A DNA stretch of 14,617 bases. It comes from Proteiniphilum sp. (GTDB taxonomy: Bacteria; Bacteroidota; Bacteroidia; Bacteroidales; Dysgonomonadaceae). This document shows, one piece after another, positions 1-13,362 of the stretch. Positions within the stretch are counted from its first letter, which is position 1; every line of letters starts with the position of its first letter. The notes beneath the pieces are model-generated. The model did no database searches. It was not told where the DNA came from and worked only from the letters and a program-made list of their open reading frames with translations. The stretch spans positions 1 through 14,617 of the forward strand of contig JAAYFB010000130.1 of assembly GCA_012728465.1 (NCBI GenBank), given 5' to 3'. Position numbers and translations under genes: made by a program.

Positions 1-6
1 ATGTTC

Positions 7-210
7 AAAAGTGGTTCGATATTTACGCTTTGCCATACGAAAATGGCAAAAAGTGAATGTGGAAAACACGTTGTCATTTGACAACGTCAAATTGCAAATG
101 ATATTTAACACGCACATTTATTATTTACGTTAAATTTAGATGTATTTCACAAATAAATTAAGTTAATTTTTTAACACTATGGTTTTCTTCAAATAAAATC
201 ACAATATATT
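7..210 (+). repeat. Structured intergenic repeat, copy 1
   Basis: This segment aligns base for base, with no gap, to 11058-11261 (constant offset 11051); by hand about 144 of 204 positions agree. Highly similar blocks are 7-27, 101-116, 129-140, 144-150, 157-176 and 191-200, and the stretch 51-100 is variable. Dyad symmetries seen here: tttgccat/atggcaaa (29-36/43-50), acgttgtca/tgacaacgt (68-76/79-87), atttaac/gttaaat (103-109/129-135, 19-nt gap) and gttaa/ttaac (162-166/171-175). The copy ends 291 nt before the pntAA start. It may extend past the left edge of the window. Function is unknown: leader RNA, operator/promoter module or dispersed repeat are all possible. Confidence 0.75.
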
Positions 211-212
211 TG
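205..212 (+). promoter_or_regulatory. Possible Bacteroidetes -7 box at the end of repeat copy 1
   Basis: The octamer tatatttg matches the Bacteroidetes primary sigma -7 consensus TAnnTTTG. No clear TTTG sits at the -33 distance (only tttt at 183-186), so support is weak. If real, transcription of the pnt operon would begin near 220 with a leader of about 280 nt, and the repeat would lie upstream of the start site rather than in the RNA. Copy 2 has a similar but imperfect aaattttg at 11255-11262. Confidence 0.25.
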
Positions 213-501
213 CTTGTCGATAATAAAAAAAGACAATTATTATTTTGCTTTTTATTATCTCGAACTACAAATTTTCACGAAAAAAATCCAACCGCTTACT
301 TATCTAAATGATGCAAAACGTGGAGACATAAAAATAAAGAAACCGACAAAAAAGAAAAATCTATTTTTTCATCTTGTACTTATCGTTATGTCATTTTTTT
401 AGACTATTTTTGCTACCAACTGGTACTTTATGTTGACAATTTGAAAGATAAATAAATAAACACTCTGAAATTACTTAAAACTTTAAATTATATTATTAGC
501 T
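211..501. other. AT-rich non-coding leader before pntAA
   Basis: No convincing gene lies here. A 62-codon open frame starting at 214 is lysine-rich, low in complexity and resembles no family. Visible elements are several T runs (363-368, 393-400) and a short dyad tacca/tggta (414-418/421-425). There is a weak promoter-like pair, ttttt g at 407-412 and tatgttg at 429-435, with a 16-nt spacer. No ribosome binding site precedes pntAA, as is usual in Bacteroidetes. Confidence 0.5.
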
Positions 502-1659
502 ATGACAATAGGTATTCCTAAAGAAATCATGCCGGGAGAGGCTCGAGTAGCAGCTACCCCTGAGACAATTAAAAAATTCATTGCAGACGGTGCAACCGTT
601 TTAGTAGAATCTGGTGCTGGCGAAAGCTCGCTTTACTACGACGAACAATACATCGAAGCTGGCGCAAAACTTGTGAATGACACACAAGAGTTATTTGACA
701 AATCTGACCTTATATTAAAGGTAAAAGAGCCACTATTCAACGAAAAACTTCAAAAGCACGAAGTGGACATGATGCACAAGGGTCAACACTTAATTACATT
801 TATACACCCAGCATCACCAGTAAATCATGAAATGGTGAAGCACCTTGCTCAAAAAGGAGTAACCTCTTTCACACTTGATAGCATTCCACGAATATCGCGT
901 GCTCAAAATATGGATGCTCTTACTTCAATGAGCACATGTGCAGGGTATAAAGGTATCATAATGGCTGCCGATGACTTAACAATATTTATGCCACAACTAT
1001 TTACAGCAGTTGGGATGCTAAAACCCGCCAATGTATTAGTTATTGGTGCAGGTGTGGCAGGACTACAAGCACTAGCTACTGCTAGAAGACTTGGAGCAAT
1101 AACATATGCTATGGACATACGCCCAGCAGGCAATGAACAAGCAGGCAGCTTGGGAGCAAAAACTATAAATCTTGGCATCCCCGAAGAACTTGCAGTGGGT
1201 AAAGGGGGCTATGCACAAACGCTACCCGAAGAATGGTTGCAAAAAGAGAGAGAAAAGATTGCCGAGGTGATTAAAGATATGGACATTGTGTTTTGCAGTG
1301 CACTAATTCCGGGAAAAATAGCACCCATACTTATTACTGAAGACATGATTAAGACAATGAAGAATGGCTCTGTTATTGTTGATATATCTATCGACCAAGG
1401 CGGAAATTGTGAAATGACTGCACCTGGCAAAAAAATTAGAGCACATAATGTAACGATTCAGGGAATAAAAAACATACCTGGACTGATACCAACTAGCTCT
1501 ACATGGATGTTTTCGAATAATGTTTACAATCTAGTTAAGTACCTAACTAAAGATGGGGAAATAAACATTGACTTAAATGATGAAATAACAAGTTCGATTT
1601 TAGTTACTCACAATGAAGAGATTGTACACACTGGGGCTCGTGAAGCTATGAAGATATAA
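502..1659 (+). CDS. pntAA: NAD(P) transhydrogenase subunit alpha part 1 (NAD(H)-binding domain I)
   Basis: This is the soluble NAD(H)-binding component (domain I) of the proton-translocating transhydrogenase, which drives hydride transfer from NADH to NADP+ with the proton gradient. The 385-residue length fits the split form of the alpha subunit. The start MTIGIPKEIMPGEARVAATP is typical of the alanine dehydrogenase/PntA N-terminal fold. The hydride-transfer loop RISRAQNMD (R130, Q135, D138) matches the Arg-Gln-Asp loop known from Rhodospirillum rubrum. The Rossmann glycine motif GAGVAG is at 182-187, with D205 in MDIRP and VDISIDQGGNCE near 293-304. No membrane segment is present, as expected for a protein in which domain II is encoded separately. 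It is the first gene of a three-gene operon, with pntAB 22 nt downstream. Confidence 0.96.
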   Translation: MTIGIPKEIMPGEARVAATPETIKKFIADGATVLVESGAGESSLYYDEQYIEAGAKLVNDTQELFDKSDLILKVKEPLFNEKLQKHEVDMMHKGQHLITFIHPASPVNHEMVKHLAQKGVTSFTLDSIPRISRAQNMDALTSMSTCAGYKGIIMAADDLTIFMPQLFTAVGMLKPANVLVIGAGVAGLQALATARRLGAITYAMDIRPAGNEQAGSLGAKTINLGIPEELAVGKGGYAQTLPEEWLQKEREKIAEVIKDMDIVFCSALIPGKIAPILITEDMIKTMKNGSVIVDISIDQGGNCEMTAPGKKIRAHNVTIQGIKNIPGLIPTSSTWMFSNNVYNLVKYLTKDGEINIDLNDEITSSILVTHNEEIVHTGAREAMKI

Positions 1660-1681
1660 ACCAAAAAAATGTATTATTTTT

Positions 1682-1990
1682 ATGAATCCTATTTACTTAA
1701 TTCTAATCTTCGTTGTGGCTACACTAGTTGGCTACTTTATTATAAAAAATGTTCCTAGCTTGCTACACACTCCACTTATGTCGGGCATGAACGCACTGTC
1801 GGGCGTAACCATATTAGGAGCAATAGCGGCTGTAGGAATTGCAGTTATATCTAAAGGCCAAGACACTTTGATGGCTAACATTATTGGCGGCATAGCTGTA
1901 ATTGCTGCCACAATAAATGTTGTAGGTGGATTTGGAGTAACCCATAGAATGCTCAAGATGTTTAATAAGAAAAAAAGAGAAACTAAATAG
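1682..1990 (+). CDS. pntAB: NAD(P) transhydrogenase subunit alpha part 2 (membrane domain II, N-terminal part)
   Basis: This small membrane subunit (102 aa) forms the first part of the proton-conducting domain II. Three hydrophobic segments are visible at about residues 4-22, 37-57 and 66-87. Family signatures are HTPLMSGMNALSG (29-41) and the terminal GGFGVTHRMLKMF (82-94), followed by a basic tail. In some transhydrogenases (Thermus thermophilus) a histidine in the NAxHG position has been proposed for proton transfer; the equivalent residue here is S40. The gene lies 22 nt after pntAA, and its stop is separated from the pntB start by two bases, so translation is probably coupled. Confidence 0.95.
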   Translation: MNPIYLILIFVVATLVGYFIIKNVPSLLHTPLMSGMNALSGVTILGAIAAVGIAVISKGQDTLMANIIGGIAVIAATINVVGGFGVTHRMLKMFNKKKRETK

Positions 1991-1992
1991 CT

Positions 1993-3408
1993 ATGACCGC
2001 AACCATTTATTACATAATTTGTGCCGTGCTATCTGTCATGGTTCTACTGGGCATATCGATGATGAGCCGTATCAAAACCTCAATGCAGGGTAACATCCTG
2101 AGTGCCGTGAGTCTGTTTTTAGGAATTGTAGTTACATTGTATTACAATGACATAATCTCAGTAGGCAGTATTTATATCTACATTCTAATTGGAACAATTA
2201 TTGGAAGTGCTTTTGCTTCAAAAGTAAAAATGATTGAAATGCCTCAACTGGTAGCACTGCTAAACAGTATCGGAGGCTTAGCCTCAGCATTAGTAGGTAT
2301 ATTATCATTGTTGGGTATTGGGCAGGCTATTAATTTATTTCCTACATTCTCTAATGTAACAGCAGTTGTGGCAATCATCGTGGGTACTATAACATTCGTT
2401 GGTAGCCTAGTTGCGGCGGCCAAACTACATAAGCTATTGCCTCAAAAGCCAGTGATTTGGAAAGGACACTCGGTCCTATTAAACATTAGTCTTATTGTTC
2501 TTGGACTTTCAGTTATTTATTCAGCACTTATTGGGAAAGTTTTTAACCCTGATATTGATCTTTTTATTATTATTTCAACAGCACTTTTAATAAGCACACT
2601 ATTTGGATATGCATTTTCAATAAGAGTGGGCGGAGCAGATATGCCTATCACTATTTCATTGCTAAACTCACTTAGTGGTGTAGCAGGAGCAATAGCGGGA
2701 ATGGCAATCGGTGATATACTCCTTGTGTCTGTTGGTGGAATAGTTGGAGCATCGGGTCTGTTCTTAACTCAGATAATGTGTAAGTCAATGAATAGAAGTC
2801 TTATGGATATATTATCTGGCAAGACATCTGTTGCATCAAAAAAGAAAACTATTGCAAATGAAGAGAAGAAAGAGGCTACAACTAGAGAAATCAAAACTGA
2901 CAATAGATCACATGGGTCAATTCTTCAATCAGCTAAGTCCATAATAATTGTTCCAGGCTATGGAATGGCCTTAGCTCAAGCACAACACCAAGTGAAGCAA
3001 CTTGCTGATAAGCTAGAAAGAAATGGTGCTGAAGTGAAATATGCTATACACCCCGTGGCAGGACGAATGCCTGGTCATATGAATGTATTGCTTGCAGAAG
3101 CAGATGTTTCTTATGAACAACTATTTGAGATGGATGCCATCAACAATGAGTTTAAAGATGCAGATGCCGTAATTGTTATTGGTGCTAATGATGTGCTTAA
3201 CCCATCAGCCCGAGATGCTGTTGATACACCAATTTATGGAATGCCAGTACTAAATGTTGATCAAGCAAAAGAGGTATTTATTTGCAACTTCGACTTAAAT
3301 CCCGGATACTCAGGTGTAGAAAACCCGCTATACAAAAAGGAGAAAGGGGTGCATTTAATGCTTGGTGATGCAAAGGAGAGTATCGAAAAACTTATAAGCT
3401 ACATGTAG
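1993..3408 (+). CDS. pntB: NAD(P) transhydrogenase subunit beta (domain II C-part plus domain III)
   Basis: The 471-residue beta subunit has a membrane part (about 1-265, roughly eight or nine hydrophobic segments) with KMIEMPQLVALLNSIGG (78-94) and GGADMPITISLLNS (213-226). A charged linker of about 275-310 follows, then the soluble NADP(H)-binding domain III (315-471). Domain III motifs are PGYGMALAQAQ (321-331), HPVAGRMPGHMNVLLAEA (353-370), GANDVLNP (397-404), IYGMPVL (414-420) and GYSG (438-441). Two departures from the E. coli enzyme are visible. The KRSM segment before GYAG, which contacts the NADP 2'-phosphate, reads NFDL (432-435). The position of the membrane residue His91 is N91. 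Both may be lineage traits. It is the last gene of the pnt operon; no clear hairpin terminator was seen directly downstream. Confidence 0.96.
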   Translation: MTATIYYIICAVLSVMVLLGISMMSRIKTSMQGNILSAVSLFLGIVVTLYYNDIISVGSIYIYILIGTIIGSAFASKVKMIEMPQLVALLNSIGGLASALVGILSLLGIGQAINLFPTFSNVTAVVAIIVGTITFVGSLVAAAKLHKLLPQKPVIWKGHSVLLNISLIVLGLSVIYSALIGKVFNPDIDLFIIISTALLISTLFGYAFSIRVGGADMPITISLLNSLSGVAGAIAGMAIGDILLVSVGGIVGASGLFLTQIMCKSMNRSLMDILSGKTSVASKKKTIANEEKKEATTREIKTDNRSHGSILQSAKSIIIVPGYGMALAQAQHQVKQLADKLERNGAEVKYAIHPVAGRMPGHMNVLLAEADVSYEQLFEMDAINNEFKDADAVIVIGANDVLNPSARDAVDTPIYGMPVLNVDQAKEVFICNFDLNPGYSGVENPLYKKEKGVHLMLGDAKESIEKLISYM

Positions 3409-3572
3409 CCTATATCACAATGAATAATAGACTATTCGCACTCAGTAGCCATAAGCAATTATAAATTCTAAAACATAAACAGGGATATACGCTTTGTAGT
3501 TTTAAAAAAAAATTGTTTCTTTGCTTAATGTTTAATGTTTATTTCCCAAAATTAATTATTAATTTAGCAGAA
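3409..3572. other. Intergenic region between pntB and the DUF3467 gene
   Basis: This 164-nt stretch has no gene. It holds a weak dyad gaata/tattc (3421-3425/3432-3436) and an A run at 3505-3513. An in-frame ATG at 3513 would add 20 residues (MFLCLMFNVYFPKLIINLAE) to the next protein, but these do not look like the family N-terminus. No promoter with both boxes was recognised. Confidence 0.4.
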
Positions 3573-3887
3573 ATGGAAAATCAAAATATAGATAATCAGA
3601 TACAAATAGAATTAACAGAGGAAGTTGCACAAGGCACATACTCTAATCTAGCAATAATATCTCACTCATCATCGGAGTTTATACTAGATTTTGTGCGAAT
3701 AGTACCGGGAGTTCCAAAAGCAAAAGTAAAGTCGCGAGTTATTCTTACTCCAGAGCATGCAAAAAGACTTTTATCAGCACTAAACGATAACATAGAAAGA
3801 TTTGAAAAAATGAATGGTAAAATTAAGATAAATAACAACGAAGTCCCAGGCTTTCCTCCACCTATCGGTGGCATGGGACAGGCTTAA
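3573..3887 (+). CDS. DUF3467 domain protein
   Basis: This small soluble protein (104 aa from the chosen start) belongs to the DUF3467 family, found widely in Bacteroidetes; its function is unknown. The core QIELTEEVAQGTYSNLAIIS, then EFILDFVRIVPGVPKAKVKS, then RVILTPEHAKRLLSALNDN covers about residues 10-75. A Gly/Pro-rich tail (PGFPPPIGGMGQA) closes the protein. I chose the ATG at 3573 (MENQNIDNQ) rather than the upstream in-frame ATG at 3513, because the added residues are hydrophobic and unlike the family start. The gene lies 164 nt after pntB and 41 nt before the DUF4492 gene, so it may share a transcript with the cyd genes. In other Bacteroidetes this family is, from memory, often near rpoC rather than here. 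Confidence 0.88.
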   Translation: MENQNIDNQIQIELTEEVAQGTYSNLAIISHSSSEFILDFVRIVPGVPKAKVKSRVILTPEHAKRLLSALNDNIERFEKMNGKIKINNNEVPGFPPPIGGMGQA

Positions 3888-3928
3888 AATTGAAGTAATA
3901 AAAATAAAATCACAGCAATATATTTATT

Positions 3929-4174
3929 ATGACAACAGAAGTACAACAAATAGAAAAGTTCAATTGGTTTAAAATGTTTTGGGCGGGCTTTACAACCATG
4001 TCAAAACAGAGCAGAACGCTTTGGATAATTGTAATTTTAAAGCTCTTCATTATGTTTGCTATTCTGAGACCAATTTTCTTCCCTAACTTTTTAAAATCAC
4101 AGGCAGAAGATAAAGCAGGACAAGCAGAATATGTACGCGAGCAAATGATTGAACGCTCAAAATCACAAGATTAA
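3929..4174 (+). CDS. DUF4492 single-pass membrane protein, cytochrome bd associated
   Basis: This 81-residue protein of the DUF4492 family is typically encoded just before cydA in Bacteroidetes. An N-terminal amphipathic part (FNWFKMFWAGFTTMSKQSRT, 11-30) precedes one membrane segment of about 31-51 (LWIIVILKLFIMFAILRPIFF). After it come PNFLKS and a charged C-terminal helix (57-81). Its gene is 47 nt before cydA in the same direction. By position and topology it could be a small accessory or assembly subunit of the oxidase, comparable in role to CydX of proteobacteria but unrelated in sequence; that role is inference. No Shine-Dalgarno sequence precedes the ATG. Confidence 0.9.
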   Translation: MTTEVQQIEKFNWFKMFWAGFTTMSKQSRTLWIIVILKLFIMFAILRPIFFPNFLKSQAEDKAGQAEYVREQMIERSKSQD

Positions 4175-4221
4175 AAAACATCTAATTTTATAAATCACCA
4201 AAACTAAAAAAGCCAGATTAT

Positions 4222-5766
4222 ATGGATTTATTATTGAACGCTACGGTTAATTGGTCTAGAGCCCAATTTGCACTAACTGCTGGTTACCATTGGATTTTTG
4301 TTCCAATCACACTAGGGTTAGCAATCATTATGTCTGTTATGGAGACAATGTATGTCAAAACAGGCGATGAAAAATGGAAGAAAACTGCGAAATTTTGGCA
4401 ATTAATCTTCGGAATTAACTTTGCCATCGGTGTGGCAACAGGAATTATTCTTGAATTTCAATTCGGAACAAACTGGTCAAACTACAGCTTATTCGTTGGT
4501 GACATTTTTGGTGCACCACTAGCAATTGAAGGTATAGTTGCCTTCTTTTTAGAATCTACATTCATAACAATAATGTTCTTCGGCTGGAATAGAGTAAGCA
4601 AAAAAATGCACCTTGCCTCAACATGGTTAGTAACATTAGGCGCAAGTCTTTCTGCTTATTGGATATTAGTAGCCAATGCATGGATGCAATATCCAGTTGG
4701 AATGGAGTTCAACCCAGAAACCATGCGCAATGAGATGGTTGACTTCTGGGCAATTGTTAAATCACCTGTTGCAATAAACAAATTTTTCCACACAGTAACC
4801 TCTTCATGGGGAGTAGGTGCTGCATTTGTTACTAGCATTAGTATGTGGTATCTACTAAAAAAGAGACACGTAGATTTTGCTCTAAGAAGTATCTTAATTG
4901 CATCAGTATTTGGGTTTACTGCCTTCTTATTAGTAGCACTAACAGGAGATGGCTCTGCTTATGAGGTAACTCAAAAACAACCGATGAAACTTGCAGCTAT
5001 GGAGGGGCTGTACGAAGGGAAAGAAGGAGCAGGCTTAGTAGCCATAGGTCTATTAGACCCAAAGAAAGAGAAATACAATGACGACGTAGATCCTTACATT
5101 TTTAAAATAGAAATACCCAAATTACTATCATTGATGGGATACAGAAATGCGAATGCTTTTGTTCCTGGAATTAAAGATGTTGTAGATGGAGGATACACCC
5201 TTCCCGATGGTACAACCGCATTGTCATTCCACGAGAAAAAAGAGAAAGGCTTAGTTGCTCACCAGGCACTTGCTGACTTCCAAAAAGCAAAGAGCGAGGG
5301 TAGAGAAACTGATGCAGCTAATTATGAAAAAGTAATTAGAGAAAACTACAACTACTTTGGATATGGTTTTCTGGAAAAAGAAGAGGATATGATACCAGAT
5401 GTTCCATTAACTTTCTATGCATTTCACACTATGGTTATGGTCGGAGGGTATTTCCTACTGTTCTTTGCCGTAGTTTGGTACTTACACAGAAAGAAAAAAC
5501 TAGAATCAATGAAATGGTTGCATCACGTTGGCATTTGGAGCTTCGCACTTGCTGTGCTAGCATCACAATTAGGATGGGTAGTAGCAGAGGTTGGACGTCA
5601 ACCATGGACTATTCAGGACATTCTACCTGTTCAAGCTGCTGCATCAGCAGTACCTGCAGCTAACGTTAAGACGACATTCTTTATGTTTGCTTTCCTATTC
5701 TCTATTCTGCTAATTGCGGAAATAATGATTATGGTGAGACAGATTAAAAAAGGTCCAGAGGAATAA
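4222..5766 (+). CDS. cydA: Cytochrome bd quinol oxidase subunit I
   Basis: Subunit I carries hemes b558, b595 and d, and oxidises quinol while reducing oxygen to water at very low oxygen tension. Length is 514 aa with about nine membrane segments. Recognisable residues, by alignment to E. coli from memory: H23 (heme ligand, E. coli His19), E103 and E111 in GAPLAIEGIVAFFLEST (Glu99/Glu107), H190 in FFHTVTSSWG (His186), K256 and E261 in QPMKLAAME of the Q-loop (Lys252/Glu257), and M404 or M406 in FHTMVMVGG as the Met393 ligand. The GRQPW motif is at 458-462. The residue aligned to E. coli Arg391 appears to be H402. The extended Q-loop of about 241-395 makes this resemble long-loop forms. cydB follows 46 nt downstream. 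Confidence 0.97.
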   Translation: MDLLLNATVNWSRAQFALTAGYHWIFVPITLGLAIIMSVMETMYVKTGDEKWKKTAKFWQLIFGINFAIGVATGIILEFQFGTNWSNYSLFVGDIFGAPLAIEGIVAFFLESTFITIMFFGWNRVSKKMHLASTWLVTLGASLSAYWILVANAWMQYPVGMEFNPETMRNEMVDFWAIVKSPVAINKFFHTVTSSWGVGAAFVTSISMWYLLKKRHVDFALRSILIASVFGFTAFLLVALTGDGSAYEVTQKQPMKLAAMEGLYEGKEGAGLVAIGLLDPKKEKYNDDVDPYIFKIEIPKLLSLMGYRNANAFVPGIKDVVDGGYTLPDGTTALSFHEKKEKGLVAHQALADFQKAKSEGRETDAANYEKVIRENYNYFGYGFLEKEEDMIPDVPLTFYAFHTMVMVGGYFLLFFAVVWYLHRKKKLESMKWLHHVGIWSFALAVLASQLGWVVAEVGRQPWTIQDILPVQAAASAVPAANVKTTFFMFAFLFSILLIAEIMIMVRQIKKGPEE

Positions 5767-5812
5767 TATTTCACATCAAGTTTTATATAAACTATTTAAA
5801 ACAAAGTAAATT

Positions 5813-6964
5813 ATGATTACATACGAATTTTTACAAAACTACTGGTGGTTTATAATAGCACTTCTTGGGGGAATATTAGTGTTTATGTTGTTTGTACAAG
5901 GGGGCCAGTCAATGCTTCATTCTTTATCTAAAACAGAAGATGAAAAGGCTTTAGTGTTAAATGCACTTGGACGGAGATGGGGGCTAACTTTCACTACACT
6001 TGTAGTGTTTGGAGGAGCCTTCTTTGCATCGTTTCCATTATTCTATGCAACTAGCTTTGGAGGAGCTTATTGGGTATGGATGTTGATTCTTTTCTCCTTC
6101 GTTGTACAAGCTGTTTCATTCGAATTTGAAGGTATGCCCAATAACTTCTTGGGACAAAAGACCTACCATAGATTCCTACTTTTTAATGGAGTGGTAGGCA
6201 CTTTCGTTCTTGGTGTTGCAGTAGCTACATTCTTCACAGGTTCAGAGTTCACTATTAACAAAGTTGCACTTGTAAACCTTCTTGGAGAGAGCAATGTAAT
6301 GAGTGGTTGGGACAACTCACTGCATGGTCTAGAGGCTTTGGGCAATCTAAGAAACTGGACTCTAGGATTAGCTGTTTTCTTTTTAGCCAGAACTCAAGCT
6401 AGCCTTTTCTTTGTAAATAGGCTTGACCATAAAGTGCTACAGGAGAGATCAAGAAAGTTCACATTGTATAATGCAATACCTTTTTTAGTTTTCTTCCTAA
6501 CGTTCCTAATTTGGACACTATTATCTGAAGGATATGCAGTAAACCCAGATACCAAAGAGGTATTTATGGAACCTTATAAGTATCTCAACAACTTAATAGA
6601 GATGCCTATCATTCTTATACTTCTATTAGCAGGAGTAGTATCTGTACTTTGGGGAATTTTTGCAACAGTATTCAAAAAATCATACAGTAAAGGGATTTGG
6701 TTCTCAGGTGCTGGAACTATTGTCGTGGTAACAATGCTCTTTTTACTAGCAGGGTATAACAATACAGCATTCTATCCTTCATATACTAACTTACAAAGTT
6801 CACTCACTGTTCAGAATGCCTCATCTAGCAAAATCACACTAGAGGCTATGGCTATTGTATCCTTACTAGTTCCTTTTGTTATAGCATATATATTTTATGC
6901 TTGGAAAGCATTAGAGGGAAAGAGACTTTCATTGAAAGATGTTCAAGAAGAAGGTGGATACTAA
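5813..6964 (+). CDS. cydB: Cytochrome bd quinol oxidase subunit II, Bacteroidetes type
   Basis: Subunit II (383 aa, about eight to nine membrane segments) pairs with CydA. The start MITYEFLQNYWWFIIALLGG and the C-terminal YPSYTNLQSSLTVQNASSSK (321-340, with LTLEAM-like continuation) align well with E. coli CydB. The canonical N-terminal DGFDMG reads QGGQSM (29-34). The canonical WDGNxVW reads WGLTFTT (56-62). The acidic residues linked to proton uptake in E. coli are therefore absent. I recall the QGGQ form from other Bacteroidetes, so this is probably a lineage trait rather than damage; the frame is intact. The gene ends 11 nt before a strong bidirectional terminator and is the last of the DUF4492-cydA-cydB group. 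Confidence 0.95.
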   Translation: MITYEFLQNYWWFIIALLGGILVFMLFVQGGQSMLHSLSKTEDEKALVLNALGRRWGLTFTTLVVFGGAFFASFPLFYATSFGGAYWVWMLILFSFVVQAVSFEFEGMPNNFLGQKTYHRFLLFNGVVGTFVLGVAVATFFTGSEFTINKVALVNLLGESNVMSGWDNSLHGLEALGNLRNWTLGLAVFFLARTQASLFFVNRLDHKVLQERSRKFTLYNAIPFLVFFLTFLIWTLLSEGYAVNPDTKEVFMEPYKYLNNLIEMPIILILLLAGVVSVLWGIFATVFKKSYSKGIWFSGAGTIVVVTMLFLLAGYNNTAFYPSYTNLQSSLTVQNASSSKITLEAMAIVSLLVPFVIAYIFYAWKALEGKRLSLKDVQEEGGY

Positions 6965-6975
6965 AAACTAGACAC

Positions 6976-7029
6976 ATTCATATATCAAAAGAGGAGATGC
7001 ACTTGCATCTCCTCTTTTGATATATGAAT
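6976..7029. terminator. Bidirectional terminator, perfect 26-nt inverted repeat
   Basis: The arms 6976-7001 and 7004-7029 are exact reverse complements with two bases between them, giving a 25-bp RNA stem with an acuu loop. The inner part has the classical form aaaa, gaggagatgca, loop, tgcatctcctc, tttt, so it can terminate both strands. It sits between convergent genes: 11 nt after the cydB stop and 8 nt beyond the stop of the minus-strand lipoprotein gene. Confidence 0.9.
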
Positions 7030-7037
7030 AGACTTTT

Positions 7038-8558
7038 CTATATCTTTACTTTAACCTTAGTAATCTTACTCTCATTTTTAAACGCATCTAGTGCAGTAAC
7101 TACATATGTATATCTATTATTTCCGCCTTCATATGGTAGCACATAAAAATTATCATTAGTGACTGCTAAAATATTTTCGGCACGATTGATGTTTACATTC
7201 TCTCCCTTCCTAAAACGATAAATAACGTACATTTGTGCACTTTCTGGATTTTCAGATTGCTTTGGTTTATCCCAAGTAAGGAAGTGCATATCTTCAGTAA
7301 ATACTTGATTAAGGTTCTTCACCTTTGTTGGTCTTCCATTGTGCATGTGTTTATATGCTGGTATGAGAGCCTTGTTACGATGAATATCTGACTTCAATAT
7401 ATTTGCTGAGTTCTCTGCATTTTCCAAAATTTGATATCCATACCAATAACTATTACCATGCACGTACGGCAATTGCCTAGACTGCATTATCTTAACCTCT
7501 AGTTCATTTTTATCCGTGCTTCGCTTTATATCTTGCCCTATGTACAAAGGTTGTTTAAAGTTATTATCGTGCCACCAATGTAATAAGGTAGTATAATCTG
7601 CGGAAGCATGTCCATTCTCCCAATAAATTTGAGGCATATTGTAATCAATCCAACCTTTTTGCACCCATAGTTTTACGTCTGCAAACAAGTCGTCATAGTT
7701 TTGCAAACCATTAGTGTCGCTACCTTCGGGATGATTTCGTTTATTCCTATAAATACCAAATGGACTAATGCCAAATCTAACCCATGGCTTGACTGAAGCA
7801 ATGGTGTATTTCAGCTCCTGAATAAGCATATTAACATTATTCCGACGCCAATCGTTGCGCTGATTATAATCAAAACCTTGAGCCGTAGCATACCTATTAA
7901 AGCTATTATCATCAGGAAATGGCTCCCCTGCTATGGGGTATGGATAGAAGTAATCATCCATATGAATGGCATCAACATCATAACGAGATACAATATCATG
8001 CACAACATCACAAATAAAGCCTCTATTTTCGGGTAATCCCGGATCAAAGTATAACTGATTTCCATATTGCACAAAGCGTTCAGGGTGTTTCCAATAGATA
8101 TGATCGGGTGAAAGCTGACTAGCAGCACTTGCTTTTGCACGATAGGGATTTAGCCAAGCATGTAGCTCCATACCTCTCTTGTGACACTCTTCGATAATAT
8201 GTGATAAAGGATCGAAGCTGTCGTCATCGGGTGCTAATCCCTGTTGCCCCGTCATGTATCTACTCCATGGCTCTAGATTAGACTTATAAAATGCATCAGC
8301 CTCTGGCCTAATTTGAAATATTACTGCGTTGATGCCAGCTGCGTCAAGTTTAGCTACCATTTCGGTAAGATAGTGCTTCATCGCGGCACTATTCATTTGT
8401 TGGTATCTAGACTGAAATACGGTTTGTATCCATGCACCCCTAAACTCATATTTTGGGCTTCTGATTTGCGATTCGTTTACTGACTTTTTGCTGGTACCAC
8501 AAGAAACAACAATCAACAATGTAACTATTATTGATAAAAATCGAAAGTATCGTATCAT
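7038..8558 (-). CDS. DUF187/GHL10 family glycoside hydrolase lipoprotein (DigH-like)
   Basis: This 506-residue lipoprotein starts with a signal peptide whose lipobox VVSC puts the lipidated cysteine at residue 20. The following GTSKKS has no acidic surface-export signal, so a periplasm-facing location is more likely. Residues of about 38-400 form the GHL10 (DUF187) TIM-barrel: FRGAWIQTVF (39-48), FQIRPEADAFY (81-91), HAWLNPYR (133-140), IHMDDYFYPYP (198-208, the likely catalytic acid region D201/D202), FGISPFGIYRN (262-272) and DYNMPQIYW (305-313). The C-terminal part, about 410-506, has a fibronectin III-like pattern. The E. coli relative DigH (YddW) cleaves peptidoglycan strands lacking stem peptides; the same role here is inference. 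It lies 19 nt after the antiporter gene and is probably co-transcribed with it. Confidence 0.9.
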   Translation of the reverse strand: MIRYFRFLSIIVTLLIVVSCGTSKKSVNESQIRSPKYEFRGAWIQTVFQSRYQQMNSAAMKHYLTEMVAKLDAAGINAVIFQIRPEADAFYKSNLEPWSRYMTGQQGLAPDDDSFDPLSHIIEECHKRGMELHAWLNPYRAKASAASQLSPDHIYWKHPERFVQYGNQLYFDPGLPENRGFICDVVHDIVSRYDVDAIHMDDYFYPYPIAGEPFPDDNSFNRYATAQGFDYNQRNDWRRNNVNMLIQELKYTIASVKPWVRFGISPFGIYRNKRNHPEGSDTNGLQNYDDLFADVKLWVQKGWIDYNMPQIYWENGHASADYTTLLHWWHDNNFKQPLYIGQDIKRSTDKNELEVKIMQSRQLPYVHGNSYWYGYQILENAENSANILKSDIHRNKALIPAYKHMHNGRPTKVKNLNQVFTEDMHFLTWDKPKQSENPESAQMYVIYRFRKGENVNINRAENILAVTNDNFYVLPYEGGNNRYTYVVTALDAFKNESKITKVKVKI

Positions 8559-8577
8559 AAATTTTTTAATTAATTGC

Positions 8578-10650
8578 TTAAGGAAATACTACATAGTCGT
8601 CACCACCACCTACTTGTGTAACTGGCACATGCTGTTTAGGAAATATAGCTATTTTACTATGCTCTGGGAATTTTCGTCCAAGACGATATGGCAAATTATC
8701 TAAAGCTGGGATGTGAGACACACAGCCACTATGTGCCGAAACTATTACAATCATATCCTTTTTCTTTATTCTATCAGAAAAAGAGAGATGATTATCCCAA
8801 TCAGTAAATGGTTCGAAAGTAAAGTTGCCCACACCTTTGTGTCTTGCAATCAACTCTTGAGTATTAGGATGACCAAGATGTAAAACAGGAATTGAGAGCT
8901 CAGACGATAACTTGGCAATCTTTTCAACCCACAAAGCAAATCCTTCCTCTTTCTCTGCCAGGGGTGGAGATATTACTATTATTCGGTCATGATCTATTAA
9001 ATCAGACTCGATACTGCACATCCATAAATTCTTATCCATCTTACGGATTATTAAATCGACCTTCTCTCCCAATATTTTATCAATAAAGCCCACCCTACCT
9101 GGCCATCCTAAAATAACTATATCGGTCATAGTCTCACGTGCCATCCTCAATATTCCATCGGCTGGATTGTGATCAATGGTAGTAAGTATATCCACATTGA
9201 CCTCTGCAGCTGTAGCTGTTTCAACAAACTCTTTAAGGTTCTTTCTGAAACCTACAATATTTTTCTCTGCCTCTACATTATTCTCAACAACTCCTAACAG
9301 TGATATAGGGTTAACTGATTTTTTATCTTTCAATAAGAGTGCCAGCTCTACATGCTTGCCAATATTAGATGGATTAGCTATAGGTACTAATATCTTCTCT
9401 TGAGCAAACTCGCCCATCGAGGATGCACTTAATGGCTCATCTTCCTCTGCTATGATAATATCTTTTGCAGCCTTTTGAGTAACAAATGAAGCCCAAATGC
9501 ATGTAATGAGAATAAGAATAATTGTACCATTGAGGATATACTCATCAAGAATACCTGCCTTGTATCCCACAATAATTATAGCCAGAGTGGCTGCAGCATG
9601 TGAGCTACTCAATCCAAAAATGAGGTTTCGCTGAACTACAGAATATTTATATGTTTTTTGTGTTGCATAGGCTGCCACCCATTTACCAATTAGTGCTACC
9701 AAAGTGAGGACTCCAGCAATAATTAAAGTGGATACTCCATCTAGCACCACTGCCACATTTACCATCATGCCTACTGAGATAAGAAACACAGGAATAAATA
9801 GCGAGTTGCCTATGAACTCTATTCGATTCATCAATGCTGAAGTATGAGGTATCAGTTTATTAAGTGCCAATCCGGCCGCAAATGCACCGATTATAGGCTC
9901 TATACCACCTAACTCAGCAAGAAATCCAGCCAGAAACACGATAAACAGAACGAATATGTAGTTTGAGTATTTCTCATATTGTGCACGTCGGAAATACCAT
10001 TTTGCTAATCTAGGAATAACGAAAAACATTATTCCTGAAAATAATGCTAGGGATAACAATAACTTTACGAAGAAATAAAAATTAAGACCTCCCTCGCTAT
10101 TCGACAATAAAACTGCTAGTATAATAAGCACAGCAGTGTCTGTAAATATTGTTCCACCCGCAGTAATGGCAACTGCTTCATTTCGCGACACGCCCAATCG
10201 ACTAACGATTGGATATGTTACCAATGTGTGAGTAGAAAACATGCTTGCTGTAAGAAAACTGGTATTGAAATCGTAGTCCAATAGATAATATAAAATTGGA
10301 AAACCTATCAATAGAGGTATAATAAATGTATAAAACCCAAAGCCTAAACTTTTATTTTTATTTTTCGAAAATTCATTTAGATCAAGCTCAAGCCCAACGA
10401 TAAACATTATGTATAACAAACCAATTGTTGAAAACATCTCAACTCCTGCATTTGCATTATCTATCCAGTTAAGTCCATGTGGACCGATGAGCACGCCTGC
10501 CAAGATGAGCCCTATGACGCTTGGCACATTTAAACGCCTAAGCACAATAGGTGCTACAAAGATTATTAACAATAGCGTAGCAAACACCAACACTGGATTG
10601 GTAAAAGGTAAAGAGAAATTTATATTTAAAATAGATAATGAACCTAACAT
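8578..10650 (-). CDS. CPA2-family cation/proton antiporter with tandem USP-like domains
   Basis: The 690-residue protein has a membrane domain of about 15-395 with roughly twelve segments of the Kef/NapA (CPA2) type. Motifs are RRLNVPSVIGLILAGVLIGP (38-57), GLLYIMFIVGLELDL (77-91), TAGGTIFTDTAVL (163-175, conserved D171 for ion/proton binding), GGIEPIIGAFAAGLALN (248-264) and LSSSHAAATLAI (347-358). A single Asp rather than an Asp-Asp pair in the core segment suggests electroneutral exchange; this is inference. The cytoplasmic part, 415-690, contains two alpha/beta domains resembling universal stress proteins. The first has GWPG (515-518), but the usual Gly-Ser of the ATP loop reads GE (528-529), so nucleotide binding is uncertain. 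Substrate (Na+ or K+) cannot be read from sequence. It is the first gene of a two-gene operon. Confidence 0.92.
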   Translation of the reverse strand: MLGSLSILNINFSLPFTNPVLVFATLLLIIFVAPIVLRRLNVPSVIGLILAGVLIGPHGLNWIDNANAGVEMFSTIGLLYIMFIVGLELDLNEFSKNKNKSLGFGFYTFIIPLLIGFPILYYLLDYDFNTSFLTASMFSTHTLVTYPIVSRLGVSRNEAVAITAGGTIFTDTAVLIILAVLLSNSEGGLNFYFFVKLLLSLALFSGIMFFVIPRLAKWYFRRAQYEKYSNYIFVLFIVFLAGFLAELGGIEPIIGAFAAGLALNKLIPHTSALMNRIEFIGNSLFIPVFLISVGMMVNVAVVLDGVSTLIIAGVLTLVALIGKWVAAYATQKTYKYSVVQRNLIFGLSSSHAAATLAIIIVGYKAGILDEYILNGTIILILITCIWASFVTQKAAKDIIIAEEDEPLSASSMGEFAQEKILVPIANPSNIGKHVELALLLKDKKSVNPISLLGVVENNVEAEKNIVGFRKNLKEFVETATAAEVNVDILTTIDHNPADGILRMARETMTDIVILGWPGRVGFIDKILGEKVDLIIRKMDKNLWMCSIESDLIDHDRIIVISPPLAEKEEGFALWVEKIAKLSSELSIPVLHLGHPNTQELIARHKGVGNFTFEPFTDWDNHLSFSDRIKKKDMIVIVSAHSGCVSHIPALDNLPYRLGRKFPEHSKIAIFPKQHVPVTQVGGGDDYVVFP

Positions 10651-10685
10651 ATATAGCTAAATGACTTTTATTATTTTGTATTTTA

Positions 10686-10693
10686 CAAAAATA
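10686..10693 (-). promoter_or_regulatory. Possible -7 box for the antiporter operon
   Basis: On the minus strand the octamer tatttttg matches TAnnTTTG and lies 36 nt before the antiporter start codon at 10650, giving a leader of about 30 nt. No convincing TTTG is visible about 20 nt further upstream, so the call rests on the -7 match and position alone. Confidence 0.35.
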
Positions 10694-11057
10694 GAGAAAA
10701 TTTCTATCATTATTAATATTAGATTTAGTATTCGTATATGAATCATCCTAAAACGAACATAACAAAAAATTCATATCCCAAAATGGTGTGCACTTTTGCA
10801 AATAGATAAAACTCAATCCATATTCACATATGCAGAAAAATGTATAGGTAAACATCAAATATGATTGGCACATTATTTTTTGTGCAAGTGCAAAAATGGT
10901 TTCAGAAAATGCATTTACATTTGTGCGAATGACTTTCTCATTTGAAAAATGCGCGCACAAAATAGAAATGAGTGAAAATGCACCCCATTTTAACTGTCTC
11001 CGCCACGACTTCACAAAATATGTTATCATATTTACTCATCCCCAAATGAAAATAGGC
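10694..11057. other. Non-coding stretch with recurring short words upstream of repeat copy 2
   Basis: No gene is supported here; two opposing open frames of 87 and 93 codons overlap each other and show no family features. The segment is rich in the words TGTGC/GCACA and AAAATGG. A dyad tttgtgcg/cgcacaaa sits at 10920-10927/10954-10961 and encloses a small hairpin cattt/aaatg. The 12-mer gcaaaaatggtt occurs at 10890 and again at 11056, the start of repeat copy 2. This may be a decayed relative of the repeat element. Confidence 0.4.
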
Positions 11058-11261
11058 AAAAATGGTTCAATATTTACGTTTTGCTACACAAAAACGTCAA
11101 AATTCGGATTCGAAAAACGCTCGCACTTTTATGCGCGACAAACCTCGAATGAGATTTAACACGCACAAATTGTTTTTCTGTTAAATTTAAAACTATTTCA
11201 CCCTTGCATTAAGTTAATATTTTAACAATGCGTTTTTATTGAAATGAAATCAACAAATTTT
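11058..11261 (+). repeat. Structured intergenic repeat, copy 2
   Basis: This copy aligns without gaps to 7-210 at about 70% identity by hand count. Conserved dyads at identical relative positions are atttaac/gttaaat (11154-11160/11180-11186, again a 19-nt gap) and gttaa/ttaac (11213-11217/11222-11226). The centre of the variable block holds cgca/tgcg (11122-11125/11132-11135), with the same centre as the acgttgtca stem of copy 1 but a different sequence. A further hairpin acgttttg/caaaaacgt with one bulged base is at 11076-11083/11089-11097. It ends 268 nt before the ABC exporter start, in the same orientation as that gene. Confidence 0.75.
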
Positions 11262-11483
11262 GGTGTCACTAAATTATAAATACGAAGTTATTACTTGTAT
11301 AGCTAAAATGTACTTATATTAGAATAGCACAGAATAAGATAATCAGAGAAAATAATTTTAAAGAATCTATCTGAAAAGAAATTGCACCTCTAGATAAACA
11401 TTTTTGCATCGGCAACTTGAAAGCGCTAGCTATAAATGTGTGTAAAATAGATAATAAAAGTCGTATATTTTCAGTACCTTGCG
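11262..11483. other. AT-rich non-coding leader before the ABC exporter gene
   Basis: This is a 222-nt AT-rich stretch with no open frame of interest. Its sequence does not match the corresponding stretch after repeat copy 1, so the similarity between the two loci stops near 11261. No tRNA-like or riboswitch-like fold was recognised by eye. Confidence 0.4.
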
Positions 11484-11509
11484 TTGTTTTTTATAATTCA
11501 ACTAATTTG
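11484..11509 (+). promoter_or_regulatory. Possible promoter of the ABC exporter gene
   Basis: A TTG (11484-11486) and a taatttg (11503-11509) are separated by 16 nt, loosely resembling the Bacteroidetes TTTG/TAnnTTTG pair but with a short spacer and a seven-base -7 element. The start codon is 20 nt further on, preceded by a purine-rich aagtaagg (11516-11523) at a spacing that would suit ribosome binding. Confidence 0.3.
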
Positions 11510-11529
11510 CAATAAAAGTAAGGTTTATA

Positions 11530-13362
11530 ATGAAGGGTATTATTAAGCTATTTAAGCGTTTCATGCCTCCATACAAGAAGTATGTAGTGCTTTCATTTCT
11601 ATTCAATATAATCACAGCAATACTTAACGTATTCTCAATGGGGACAATTATTCCCATTCTTCAGGTATTATTCAAGGTGAACACAAAGTCATATGAGTTT
11701 ATTGCATGGAATACTCAGGGAGAGTCAATAATTGACATCACTTTAAATAATGCCAATTGGTATTTCTCACAAATGATAGAAACTCACGGTGGTAGCAAAA
11801 CCTTGATGATTTTGGCTGCTGCATTGGTTTTACTCACATTACTAAAAACAGGAACAGCATATTTAGGGTCTTATTTCACAATTCCTATCAGAACAGGTGT
11901 TGTTAAAGATATCAGAAACCAGATTAACGATAAAATCCTCCAATTATCAATGGGCTTTTTCTCCGAAGAGCGAAAGGGCGATATAATGGCTAGAATTTCG
12001 GGTGACGTAAATGAGGTAGAAAACTCGGTAATGAGTTCGTTAGATATGCTTTTTAAAAACCCAGTGCTAGTTATTATATATTTAGGCACGATGATTATTC
12101 TGAGCTGGCAACTAACTCTCTTCGTATTTGTAGTATTGCCTGTGATGGGTTATGTGATGGGAACCGTTGGCAAAAACTTAAAAAAGAGCTCATTTGAGGC
12201 ACAGAATAAGTGGGGAGAATTGATGTCGCAAATTGAAGAAACCCTCGGCGGACTTCGAGTTATTAAAGCTTTCAATGCCGAGAGTAAAATATCAAAAAGA
12301 TTTCATAGAGGTAGCGATGAGTTTAGGAAGATGTCTAGTCGAATAGCTAGACGTCAATATTTGGCTCATCCTATGAGTGAGTTTTTGGGAACACTCACTA
12401 TTGCTATTGTACTTTGGTTTGGAGGTACGCTCATTTTAAACGATACAGGAATTATCGAAGCTGCAATATTTATATATTATCTAACAATGTTTTATAGTAT
12501 CATCAATCCTATAAAAGAGTTTTCGAGATCGGCCTATGCCATTCAGCGAGGGCTAGCATCTATGGATAGAATTGATAAAATATTGACAGCTAGCAACGAG
12601 CTTAAAGAGTTGGATAATCCTAAAAAAATTAGCTTCAAAAATCATATCCACTACAAAGATGTTTGGTTTAAATATACAGAAGATTGGGTACTTAGAGGAA
12701 TTAACTTGAAAATTGAAAAAGGATCTACAATTGCATTAGTTGGACAGTCTGGCTCGGGAAAATCTACTATGGCTGATCTTCTTCCACGTTTCTACGATAT
12801 TCAGAAAGGAGAGTTAATGATTGACGATGTAAATATTAAGGATTGCACTATGCACGACTTGAGGGCAAAAATAGGCTATGTAAATCAAGAGGCAATCCTA
12901 TTTAATGACACAATCTATAATAACATTGCCTTCGGGGTAGAAAACACTACACAAGCGGAAGTGATAGATGCTGCAAAGATTGCTAATGCACACGAGTTTA
13001 TTATGGCCACTCCTGAAGGATATCAAACAAATATTGGTGATAGAGGTGGAAGATTATCTGGCGGACAGCGACAACGCATCAGTATTGCTAGAGCTATACT
13101 AAAGAATCCAGAAATACTACTACTAGATGAGGCAACATCTGCACTCGACACCGACTCGGAAAGACTTGTGCAAGAGGCATTGGAAAAGTTAATGAAAGAC
13201 AGAACTACAATAATTGTAGCTCATAGATTATCAACTATCAAGAATGCTGACATTATATATGTTTTGCAAGATGGACAAATTGTTGAGTCTGGCAATCATA
13301 ATACACTATTTTCAATGAATGGAATTTACACCAAGCTCTGTGCAATGCAAGGCGAGGTTTAA
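11530..13362 (+). CDS. MsbA-like ABC exporter (fused permease and ATPase)
   Basis: This 610-residue half-transporter would work as a homodimer in the inner membrane. Residues 1-345 form the six-helix exporter domain, with a long periplasmic loop of about 50-88 between the first two helices. The coupling-helix region SMGFFSEERKGDIMARISGD spans 140-159. The nucleotide-binding domain has Walker A GQSGSGKST (405-413), Q-loop Q453, signature LSGGQRQR (509-516), Walker B ILLLDE (529-534), D-loop SALD (537-540) and switch histidine H565, all intact. Similarity is to the MsbA/lipid-and-drug exporter group; lipid A core flipping is possible, but the substrate cannot be read from sequence. It stands alone, preceded by a long leader with repeat copy 2 and followed by a hairpin terminator. 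Confidence 0.94.
   Translation: MKGIIKLFKRFMPPYKKYVVLSFLFNIITAILNVFSMGTIIPILQVLFKVNTKSYEFIAWNTQGESIIDITLNNANWYFSQMIETHGGSKTLMILAAALVLLTLLKTGTAYLGSYFTIPIRTGVVKDIRNQINDKILQLSMGFFSEERKGDIMARISGDVNEVENSVMSSLDMLFKNPVLVIIYLGTMIILSWQLTLFVFVVLPVMGYVMGTVGKNLKKSSFEAQNKWGELMSQIEETLGGLRVIKAFNAESKISKRFHRGSDEFRKMSSRIARRQYLAHPMSEFLGTLTIAIVLWFGGTLILNDTGIIEAAIFIYYLTMFYSIINPIKEFSRSAYAIQRGLASMDRIDKILTASNELKELDNPKKISFKNHIHYKDVWFKYTEDWVLRGINLKIEKGSTIALVGQSGSGKSTMADLLPRFYDIQKGELMIDDVNIKDCTMHDLRAKIGYVNQEAILFNDTIYNNIAFGVENTTQAEVIDAAKIANAHEFIMATPEGYQTNIGDRGGRLSGGQRQRISIARAILKNPEILLLDEATSALDTDSERLVQEALEKLMKDRTTIIVAHRLSTIKNADIIYVLQDGQIVESGNHNTLFSMNGIYTKLCAMQGEV

Follow-up and report, generated by a model that had tools for sequence, protein, structure and literature searches.

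A dispersed, AT-rich intergenic repeat family with a seven-base rhythm and an almost indel-free core in a Proteiniphilum genome

The 14,617-nt contig JAAYFB010000130.1 of Proteiniphilum sp. (assembly GCA_012728465.1), called the window here, carries two similar non-coding segments, in the same orientation and upstream of unrelated genes. What kind of element is present in two such places, and what would keep its length while its letters change? In bacteria, dispersed repeats tend to be either short palindromes or mobile elements whose repeat number varies. The segments are copies of a lineage-specific, dispersed family of AT-rich intergenic repeats, about 520 bp long. As a reading of the sequence, to which a probability of about 0.45 is given, this repeat either is or has turned into a rigid array to which a protein binds cooperatively, in the spacers between divergent promoters.

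An earlier note, made from the window sequence, had described the pair as a direct repeat with a constant offset of 11051 and about 144 identities over 204 positions. The repeat was recovered mechanically, with figures that agree: positions 85-245 match 11136-11296 at 70% identity (direct-repeat family D1), 6-67 match 11057-11118 at 76% (D2), and blastn in the own genome, with window 11040-11300 as the query, finds window 6-201 (73% identity, E 3.3e-23). The similarity is far beyond chance. The extents given at first had to be changed: the window is the entire contig (C221, 1-14617) and begins inside the first copy, so that only the right ~40% of the element is present there; the second copy reaches about 315 bp further to the left, to ~10742. 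The segments are the following.

10742..11261, + strand (the common orientation of the family): full-length copy of the ~520-bp element, from blastn in the own genome and alignments; ends approximate
10785-11227: gap-free core of this full-length copy
1..210, + strand: second copy, right ~40%, cut by the contig start, from repeat finding, blastn and alignment
11155..11227, no strand: well conserved 3' block with GTTAA/TTAAC words, from alignments; equivalent in copy 1: 104-176

The ends of the element are ragged, not sharp, and the sequence past its 3' end diverges between copies.

The own genome (G000) is a single fragmented assembly of 2.54 Mb in 472 contigs, 89% complete. Its CydB-like protein (named by eye) shares 78% identity with the one in Petrimonas sp. 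IBARAKI (AP018040.2, 3693233 bp; G002 below) and, on sequence grounds, the genome belongs to the genus of Petrimonas. When it was searched by blastn with window 10640-11560, 17 places were found, including the window's two; the 16 besides the full copy match at 69-84% identity, within query positions 103-643. A sequence-only model search adds a 65-nt partial copy at the end of contig C245, which stands outside the 17-copy alignment and the analysis of neighbouring genes. Weaker rows were left out: 29 blastn rows with E >= 0.08 (query 11040-11300), a 26-nt row on C462 (E 0.0037; query 10640-11560), and 12 model-search rows weaker than C245 (antisense, internal or with E above 0.01). Both halves are present in six of the 18 segments (the window copy, C85, C340, C87, C303, C308), while seven lack the right end (C88, C204, C69, C418, C337, C216, C245) and five the left part (the window start, C335, C215, C284, C459). 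Because partial segments run into contig ends, the 18 segments correspond to 13-18 loci. The six full copies are 65-88% identical to each other. Some stretches are identical, or nearly so, between copies (132/132 nt for C335 and C88, 141/141 for C284 and C204, 99.3% of 149 for C418 and C216), which suggests gene conversion.

Although the full copies differ to this degree, the length of the core is kept: its 437 columns in the six full copies contain at least 265 substitutions and no indels. When all 17 copies are aligned (443 core columns, window 10785-11227), at least 333 substitutions are found and a single indel event, of 1 nt, in C337. A second repeat family of the own genome (4 sequences), used as a control, has 11 indels per 188 pairwise substitutions: at this ratio 15.5 indels are expected for 265 substitutions, and the probability of none is ~2e-7, an order of magnitude only, the control being small and its pairs not independent. 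The earlier note had proposed a constrained, nearly gap-free intergenic element and a dispersed family, and had counted a lack of further copies in the genome as evidence to the contrary; the 18 segments and the near absence of core indels bear it out.

The core is also rhythmic. Column entropy has a period of 6.92 nt, that is 2/3 of a helical turn, with a power of 13.9 (maximum in 300 shuffles: 10.5). For the A/T indicator in five single copies, the power at 6.92 is 14.9, 8.4, 15.4, 23.0 and 21.2: this is the top peak in four of them, while C85 is strongest at the double, 13.84. Whole spacers of at least 350 bp reach 6.0-22.7 in the 14 bearing the element and 1.8-5.6 in four element-free ones of the own genome; those of two same-genus genomes, G009 (22) and G007 (14), reach at most 5.3. 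Phase-stacking of the consensus gives z values of about 10 at 41.65, 8 at 20.8, 7 at 6.95 and 5 at 10.4 nt. The element probably descends from a tandem unit of ~41.6 bp, now decayed, equal to four helical turns and six heptads, with 6.92 bp as its harmonic. Tandem Repeats Finder reports nothing at 10600-11500, the repeat being, therefore, too decayed for that program. A fixed-period motif fits best at 6.925 (0.70 per site; 0.68 in a finer scan); the next value is 0.48 at 8.275, near one fifth of 41.6, with a mean of 0.22 over 5.5-9 nt and at most 0.15 in eight column shuffles. The fitted motif is ~nnTTTTR, written YATTTGR, in both orientations, and the array is located as follows.

10770..11230, no strand: array of 66 fitted T/A-tract heptads with a period of 6.925 bp (3 per 20.8 bp), from periodograms, phase stack and motif fit

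Conservation depends on the phase: consensus columns with A or T vary in 31 of 139 cases (22%) in the W phase, as opposed to 58 of 103 (56%) in the S phase (p 1e-7). As a separate observation, the reverse complement of window 10764-10917 (- strand) matches the element's own model R1 (E 1.2e-5); this is an internal quasi-dyad symmetry, resulting from A-tract and T-tract heptads.

Placement relative to genes is far from even. The gene on the 3' side is on the same strand as the element at 9 of 9 loci, and the one on the 5' side points away at 11 of 12 (the exception is C87); taken together, 20 of the 21 gene ends next to the element are 5' ends, the background being 0.48-0.60 in intergenic regions of at least 100 bp (an own sample of 21, 97 from G009, 67 from G007). 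The binomial probability is 1e-5 at 0.5 and 3e-4 at 0.6, to be read with the proviso that a locus contributes two sides which depend on each other to some extent, and that a left and a right part may in some cases come from a single locus. In G002, the relatives of the pepD-like (C337) and ksgA-like (C215) genes are separated by 1.4 kb, which contains a 361-aa frame. Both sides are readable at four loci, three divergent and one tandem; short frames overlapping the element were disregarded when neighbours were named. The dispersed repeat that the earlier note had listed as an option is confirmed as to dispersal; a plain random repeat does not agree with the 5'-end placement and the near lack of core indels. 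REP units (REP/BIME) are short, GC-rich palindromes near gene 3' ends. The heptad element is, like them, dispersed, mosaic and intergenic, with possible protein-binding sites; unlike them, it is 520 bp long, AT-rich and located at gene 5' sides.

The Bacteroidetes -7 promoter motif is TAnnTTTG. Of the flanks, 8 of 9 downstream ones and 8 of 10 upstream ones carry it between the element and the start codon, with 11 occurrences on each side where 1.8 (downstream) and 2.3 (upstream) are expected (start codons chosen by eye, C308 left out); in those 16 flanks the nearest one is 26-129 nt from the start codon. The sole downstream flank without it is that of the window's ABC-exporter copy. The motif identifies three positions in the window.

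405..412, + strand: -7-like box of the pntAA-like first gene (start 502), outside the element
10686..10693, - strand: -7-like box belonging to the antiporter-like gene that diverges upstream (start 10650), outside the element
10916..10923, + strand: TAnnTTTG word within the element, recurring at this position in 8 of the 13 copies that extend this far

With promoter-like boxes separating the element from the genes on either side, it is unlikely to be a 5' leader and is probably outside the mRNA leaders of the flanking genes, although a promoter may also lie inside it.

A mechanism can be outlined for the proposed protein array. The element has probably grown from the ~41.6-bp unit of six heptads and four helical turns, and its ~66 AT-tract heptads (~YATTTGR, both orientations) sit in a fixed 6.925-bp frame. 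A putative cooperative protein would assemble on this rigid array and touch one T/A tract per heptad, hence at intervals of two thirds of a turn, and the resulting complex would separate or tune the two flanking promoters. Both selection through protein binding and the effect on promoters are what we infer from the regularities above. The more specific claim, that arrays of ~66 units occupy 13-18 divergent-promoter spacers and that the putative protein polymerises on them, insulating or tuning both promoters, is doubtful.

Outside the own genome no convincing copy was found, within the reach of searches of limited depth (9 same-genus, 100 family and 392 order genomes); a lack of copies in relatives had been named in the earlier note as speaking against its proposal. 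By blastn, none of 60 relatives, 9 of them of the same genus, matches the element (best 10 candidates at most scored per genome). With the sequence-only model R2, 12 of 101 family genomes, the own included, have matches at E <= 0.01 (at most 26 candidates per genome scored, stricter filters): each of the 11 others has one weak match, of 17-23 bits, compared to 96-150 bits for 12 sense own copies. The best 6.9-period power at those 11 loci, in any 460-bp window, is 3.6-9.1; the window copy reaches 15.2, the partial C215 9.9. The order search was limited to two candidates per genome and recovered two places even in the own genome; in it, 12 of 392 other genomes have matches of 28-66 nt (E 4e-5 to 1e-3). 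The 11 family and 12 order matches were taken to be AT-rich chance; the rhythm separates the family ones from fuller copies only. No element was found in the phage or plasmid sequences searched, and a pattern match in a viral contig (L120) was rejected, as it has no homology to the element. A pattern search of genome contigs gave no match, in a set from which the own records may be left out, and no such element turned up in literature searches.

One locus can be compared between species. In C303 the element lies between an rpe-like and a lipoprotein-like gene, in a spacer of 1083 bp. For the orthologous pair, parsed in 7 of 9 same-genus genomes, the spacers (by longest frame) are 210, 268, 294, 328, 328, 333 and 393 bp long, and the element is absent from all seven; the upstream gene is on the opposite strand in 7 of 7, and the same kind of N-terminus is readable in 5. 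When the own spacer is aligned, with gaps, to its G002 counterpart, the promoter-like ends correspond. Same-genus spacers are too diverged for a base-by-base alignment of the element-free site; in DNA, the exporter gene shares just 69-72% identity with these genomes. A 44-nt blast match in the rpe spacer of G001 looked like AT-rich chance and was rejected. From these sequences, the C303 spacer either became longer in the own lineage or shorter in the others.

These results bear on another explanation, in which the family is a selfish or neutral, non-autonomous mobile element, similar to a miniature inverted-repeat transposable element (MITE) or a minisatellite, which spread in the own lineage into upstream regions and is homogenised by gene conversion; period and frame would be relics of its tandem origin. 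This is possible; should nothing read the frame, it is the leading alternative. Occurrence in one genome only, the longer spacer at C303, the long identical stretches between copies and the recurrence of the TAnnTTTG word inside the element are in its favour, as is a second dispersed family which, at C215 and C308, directly abuts the heptad element on its 3' side. The copies are numerous, intergenic, AT-rich and non-coding, and their length is within the 50-1000 bp of MITE or BrickBuilt-like elements. BrickBuilt, from Porphyromonas gingivalis, is a precedent from a Bacteroidales genome: PMC4596501 describes a species-specific, intergenic MITE with 19 copies in one strain, 84-991 nt long, made of 1 to 22.8 internal tandem repeats of 23 nt between a leader and a tail with inverted repeats resembling IS5-family ends, parts of which have bidirectional promoter activity. 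The heptad element shares with it, on that description, the multiple intergenic copies in one genome and an internal tandem repeat. It differs in its fixed core length, which varies by a single 1-nt indel, no change of internal repeat number being seen in the six full copies; in its 41.6/20.8/6.9-bp frame; and in its ends, where no end-to-end inverted pair of 25 nt or more was found (shorter ones were looked for by eye only, and transposases were not searched). Phase-dependent conservation and the strong bias towards gene 5' ends also disagree with a simply mobile sequence. Origin by the spread of a BrickBuilt-like mobile element is compatible with a protein-binding array.

A protein-coding gene was rejected: stop codons interrupt every frame, on both strands, in the six full copies, and no 3-periodicity is present. 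Antisense frames of 70-161 aa overlap several copies, and the partial copies C337 and C216 have one stop-free frame each on the - strand (81 and 63 codons). The element might instead be a transcribed, structured RNA family, or an antisense RNA, with an intrinsic terminator on the - strand formed by the following stem.

11118..11139, no strand: covarying stem or dyad; equivalent in copy 1: 67-88

In this stem 80.6% of 108 cells are paired (slid versions: at most 41.7%), and both sides change in 22 cases versus 7.7 in shuffles (0/500 reach this number); further pair types are not raised (9 vs 9.2), and the 12 rows tested form a small number of related groups. Read on the - strand, the stem (11121-11138) precedes a run of 4-5 T, in the manner of a terminator, and a weak intrinsic terminator is possible there. 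Terminator-like sites number 3, compared to 0.2 in shuffles, and the folding z is -3.3 for the + strand and -1.9 for the - strand. In a scan for 6-bp stems, 64 rows pass versus 16-43 in column permutations; only the top six, all overlapping 11118-11139, exceed the best permutation, the best other row being equal to the best of three. Folding the six copies to a consensus gives 112 pairs, 16 of them with a both-side change, and a covariation term that is unfavourable (+3.12); TAnnTTTG words on the - strand are at shuffle level (5 vs 5.2 expected). Over the whole length of the element, only one stem clearly covaries. Rfam has no family on the element in L046 and L049 and, in the window, gives only four microRNA-type matches below the gathering score, one of which (mir-192, 22-98) spans the truncated copy. 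An RNA of this kind is unlikely; the structured leader suggested in the earlier note is disfavoured both by the single covarying stem and by the boxes between element and start codon.

For a protein array, the nearest experimental precedent found is the parS site of plasmid pSM19035; membership is not claimed. According to PMC9499535, this site consists of 7-10 contiguous, non-palindromic 7-bp WATCACW units, direct or inverted, bound in a helical complex by ParB/omega, of the ribbon-helix-helix (RHH) family; loss of contiguity impairs function, and the arrays overlap plasmid promoters. Compared with this description, contiguous units of ~7 bp are present here too (period 6.925, 66 sites), but they are ~66 degenerate units of another motif, ~YATTTGR, at 13-18 dispersed chromosomal loci, mostly upstream of promoter-like boxes. 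Gap-free heptads whose contiguity is needed would also suit a family of chromosomal segregation or nucleoid-organising sites, similar to a parS heptad array but dispersed. Relatives of 11 genes adjacent to or near the element lie within ~52% of the IBARAKI chromosome (G002), from 2141 kb through 0 to 360 kb. Such a role is, however, very unlikely: the clustering is weak (~0.03, by hand, for 10 points; gene order may differ), 2 of 13 query pieces have no match in the comparison, the cluster is not centred on the dnaA-like gene (356 kb), the motif is not WATCACW, and an RHH_1 protein is not matched in the own genome.

Several observations weigh against the rigid array. The indel control is slight, as already said; the dependence on phase is lost or inverted in G/C columns (30/38, or 79%, vary in the W phase, 45/74, or 61%, in the S phase, p 0.06); the first ~40 bp of the element (10742-10784) contain small gaps among copies; and the motif fit without free orientation is nearly as good (0.55 vs 0.68). 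No between-species conservation is seen, at the depth of the searches made, and the covarying stem fits single-strand folding better than duplex binding. On the + strand the element contains 10 TAnnTTTG words in 10 of 17 copies versus 2.9 expected, so that a promoter may lie inside it. RHH_1 (PF01402) has no match in the own genome, at its 89% completeness, and 9 of 14 control genomes are positive; other RHH families were not searched. Finally, the flanking genes form no regulon. They are functionally mixed and share no common pathway, contrary to the regulon-operator option of the earlier note: ten were assigned by Pfam (short-chain dehydrogenase, fumarase/aspartase-type lyase, DUF4494, DUF4199, FecCD permease, glycoside hydrolase 2, threonine dehydratase, pirin, DsbD, LacI-type regulator), and the rest were judged by eye. 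The other gene names (pntAA, ABC exporter, antiporter, rpe, lipoprotein-like, ksgA, pepD, pta, yifB, mazG, yggS, dnaA) come from inspection of translations.

Other repeats were observed besides the heptad element. The second dispersed intergenic repeat of the own genome is ~180 nt long, some copies having a terminator-like hairpin (by eye), and is located as follows.

L049 (C215), 205-386: second repeat
L122 (C85), 387-565: second repeat
L123 (C71), 177-357: second repeat
L124 (C78 part), 1501-1615: second repeat, further place
L052 (C308), 1-108: second repeat, further place

The contig with the partial copy in L124 (C78) also bears the Rfam Bacteroidales-1 RNA (L124 1-167, 108 bits). Another short dispersed stretch is common to intergenic regions of the own genome (L044 1788-2049, L048 214-334, L054, L057, L058). 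In the window, a perfect 26-bp inverted repeat with a 2-nt gap (6976-7029) lies between two convergent genes and is probably a bidirectional terminator; it explains the microRNA-type chance matches obtained there in Rfam.

The family thus consists of half-kilobase non-coding elements which, with up to a third of their letters differing between copies, keep the length of their core and a 6.92-bp rhythm. If they are mobile elements, the near lack of indels requires another explanation. If the array exists as proposed, it would amount to a bacterial boundary element whose DNA code is locked to a frame, for which the nearest published case found is a short plasmid centromere array; and, if a protein reads the frame, these loci would represent a new kind of chromosomal nucleoprotein site between divergent promoters.

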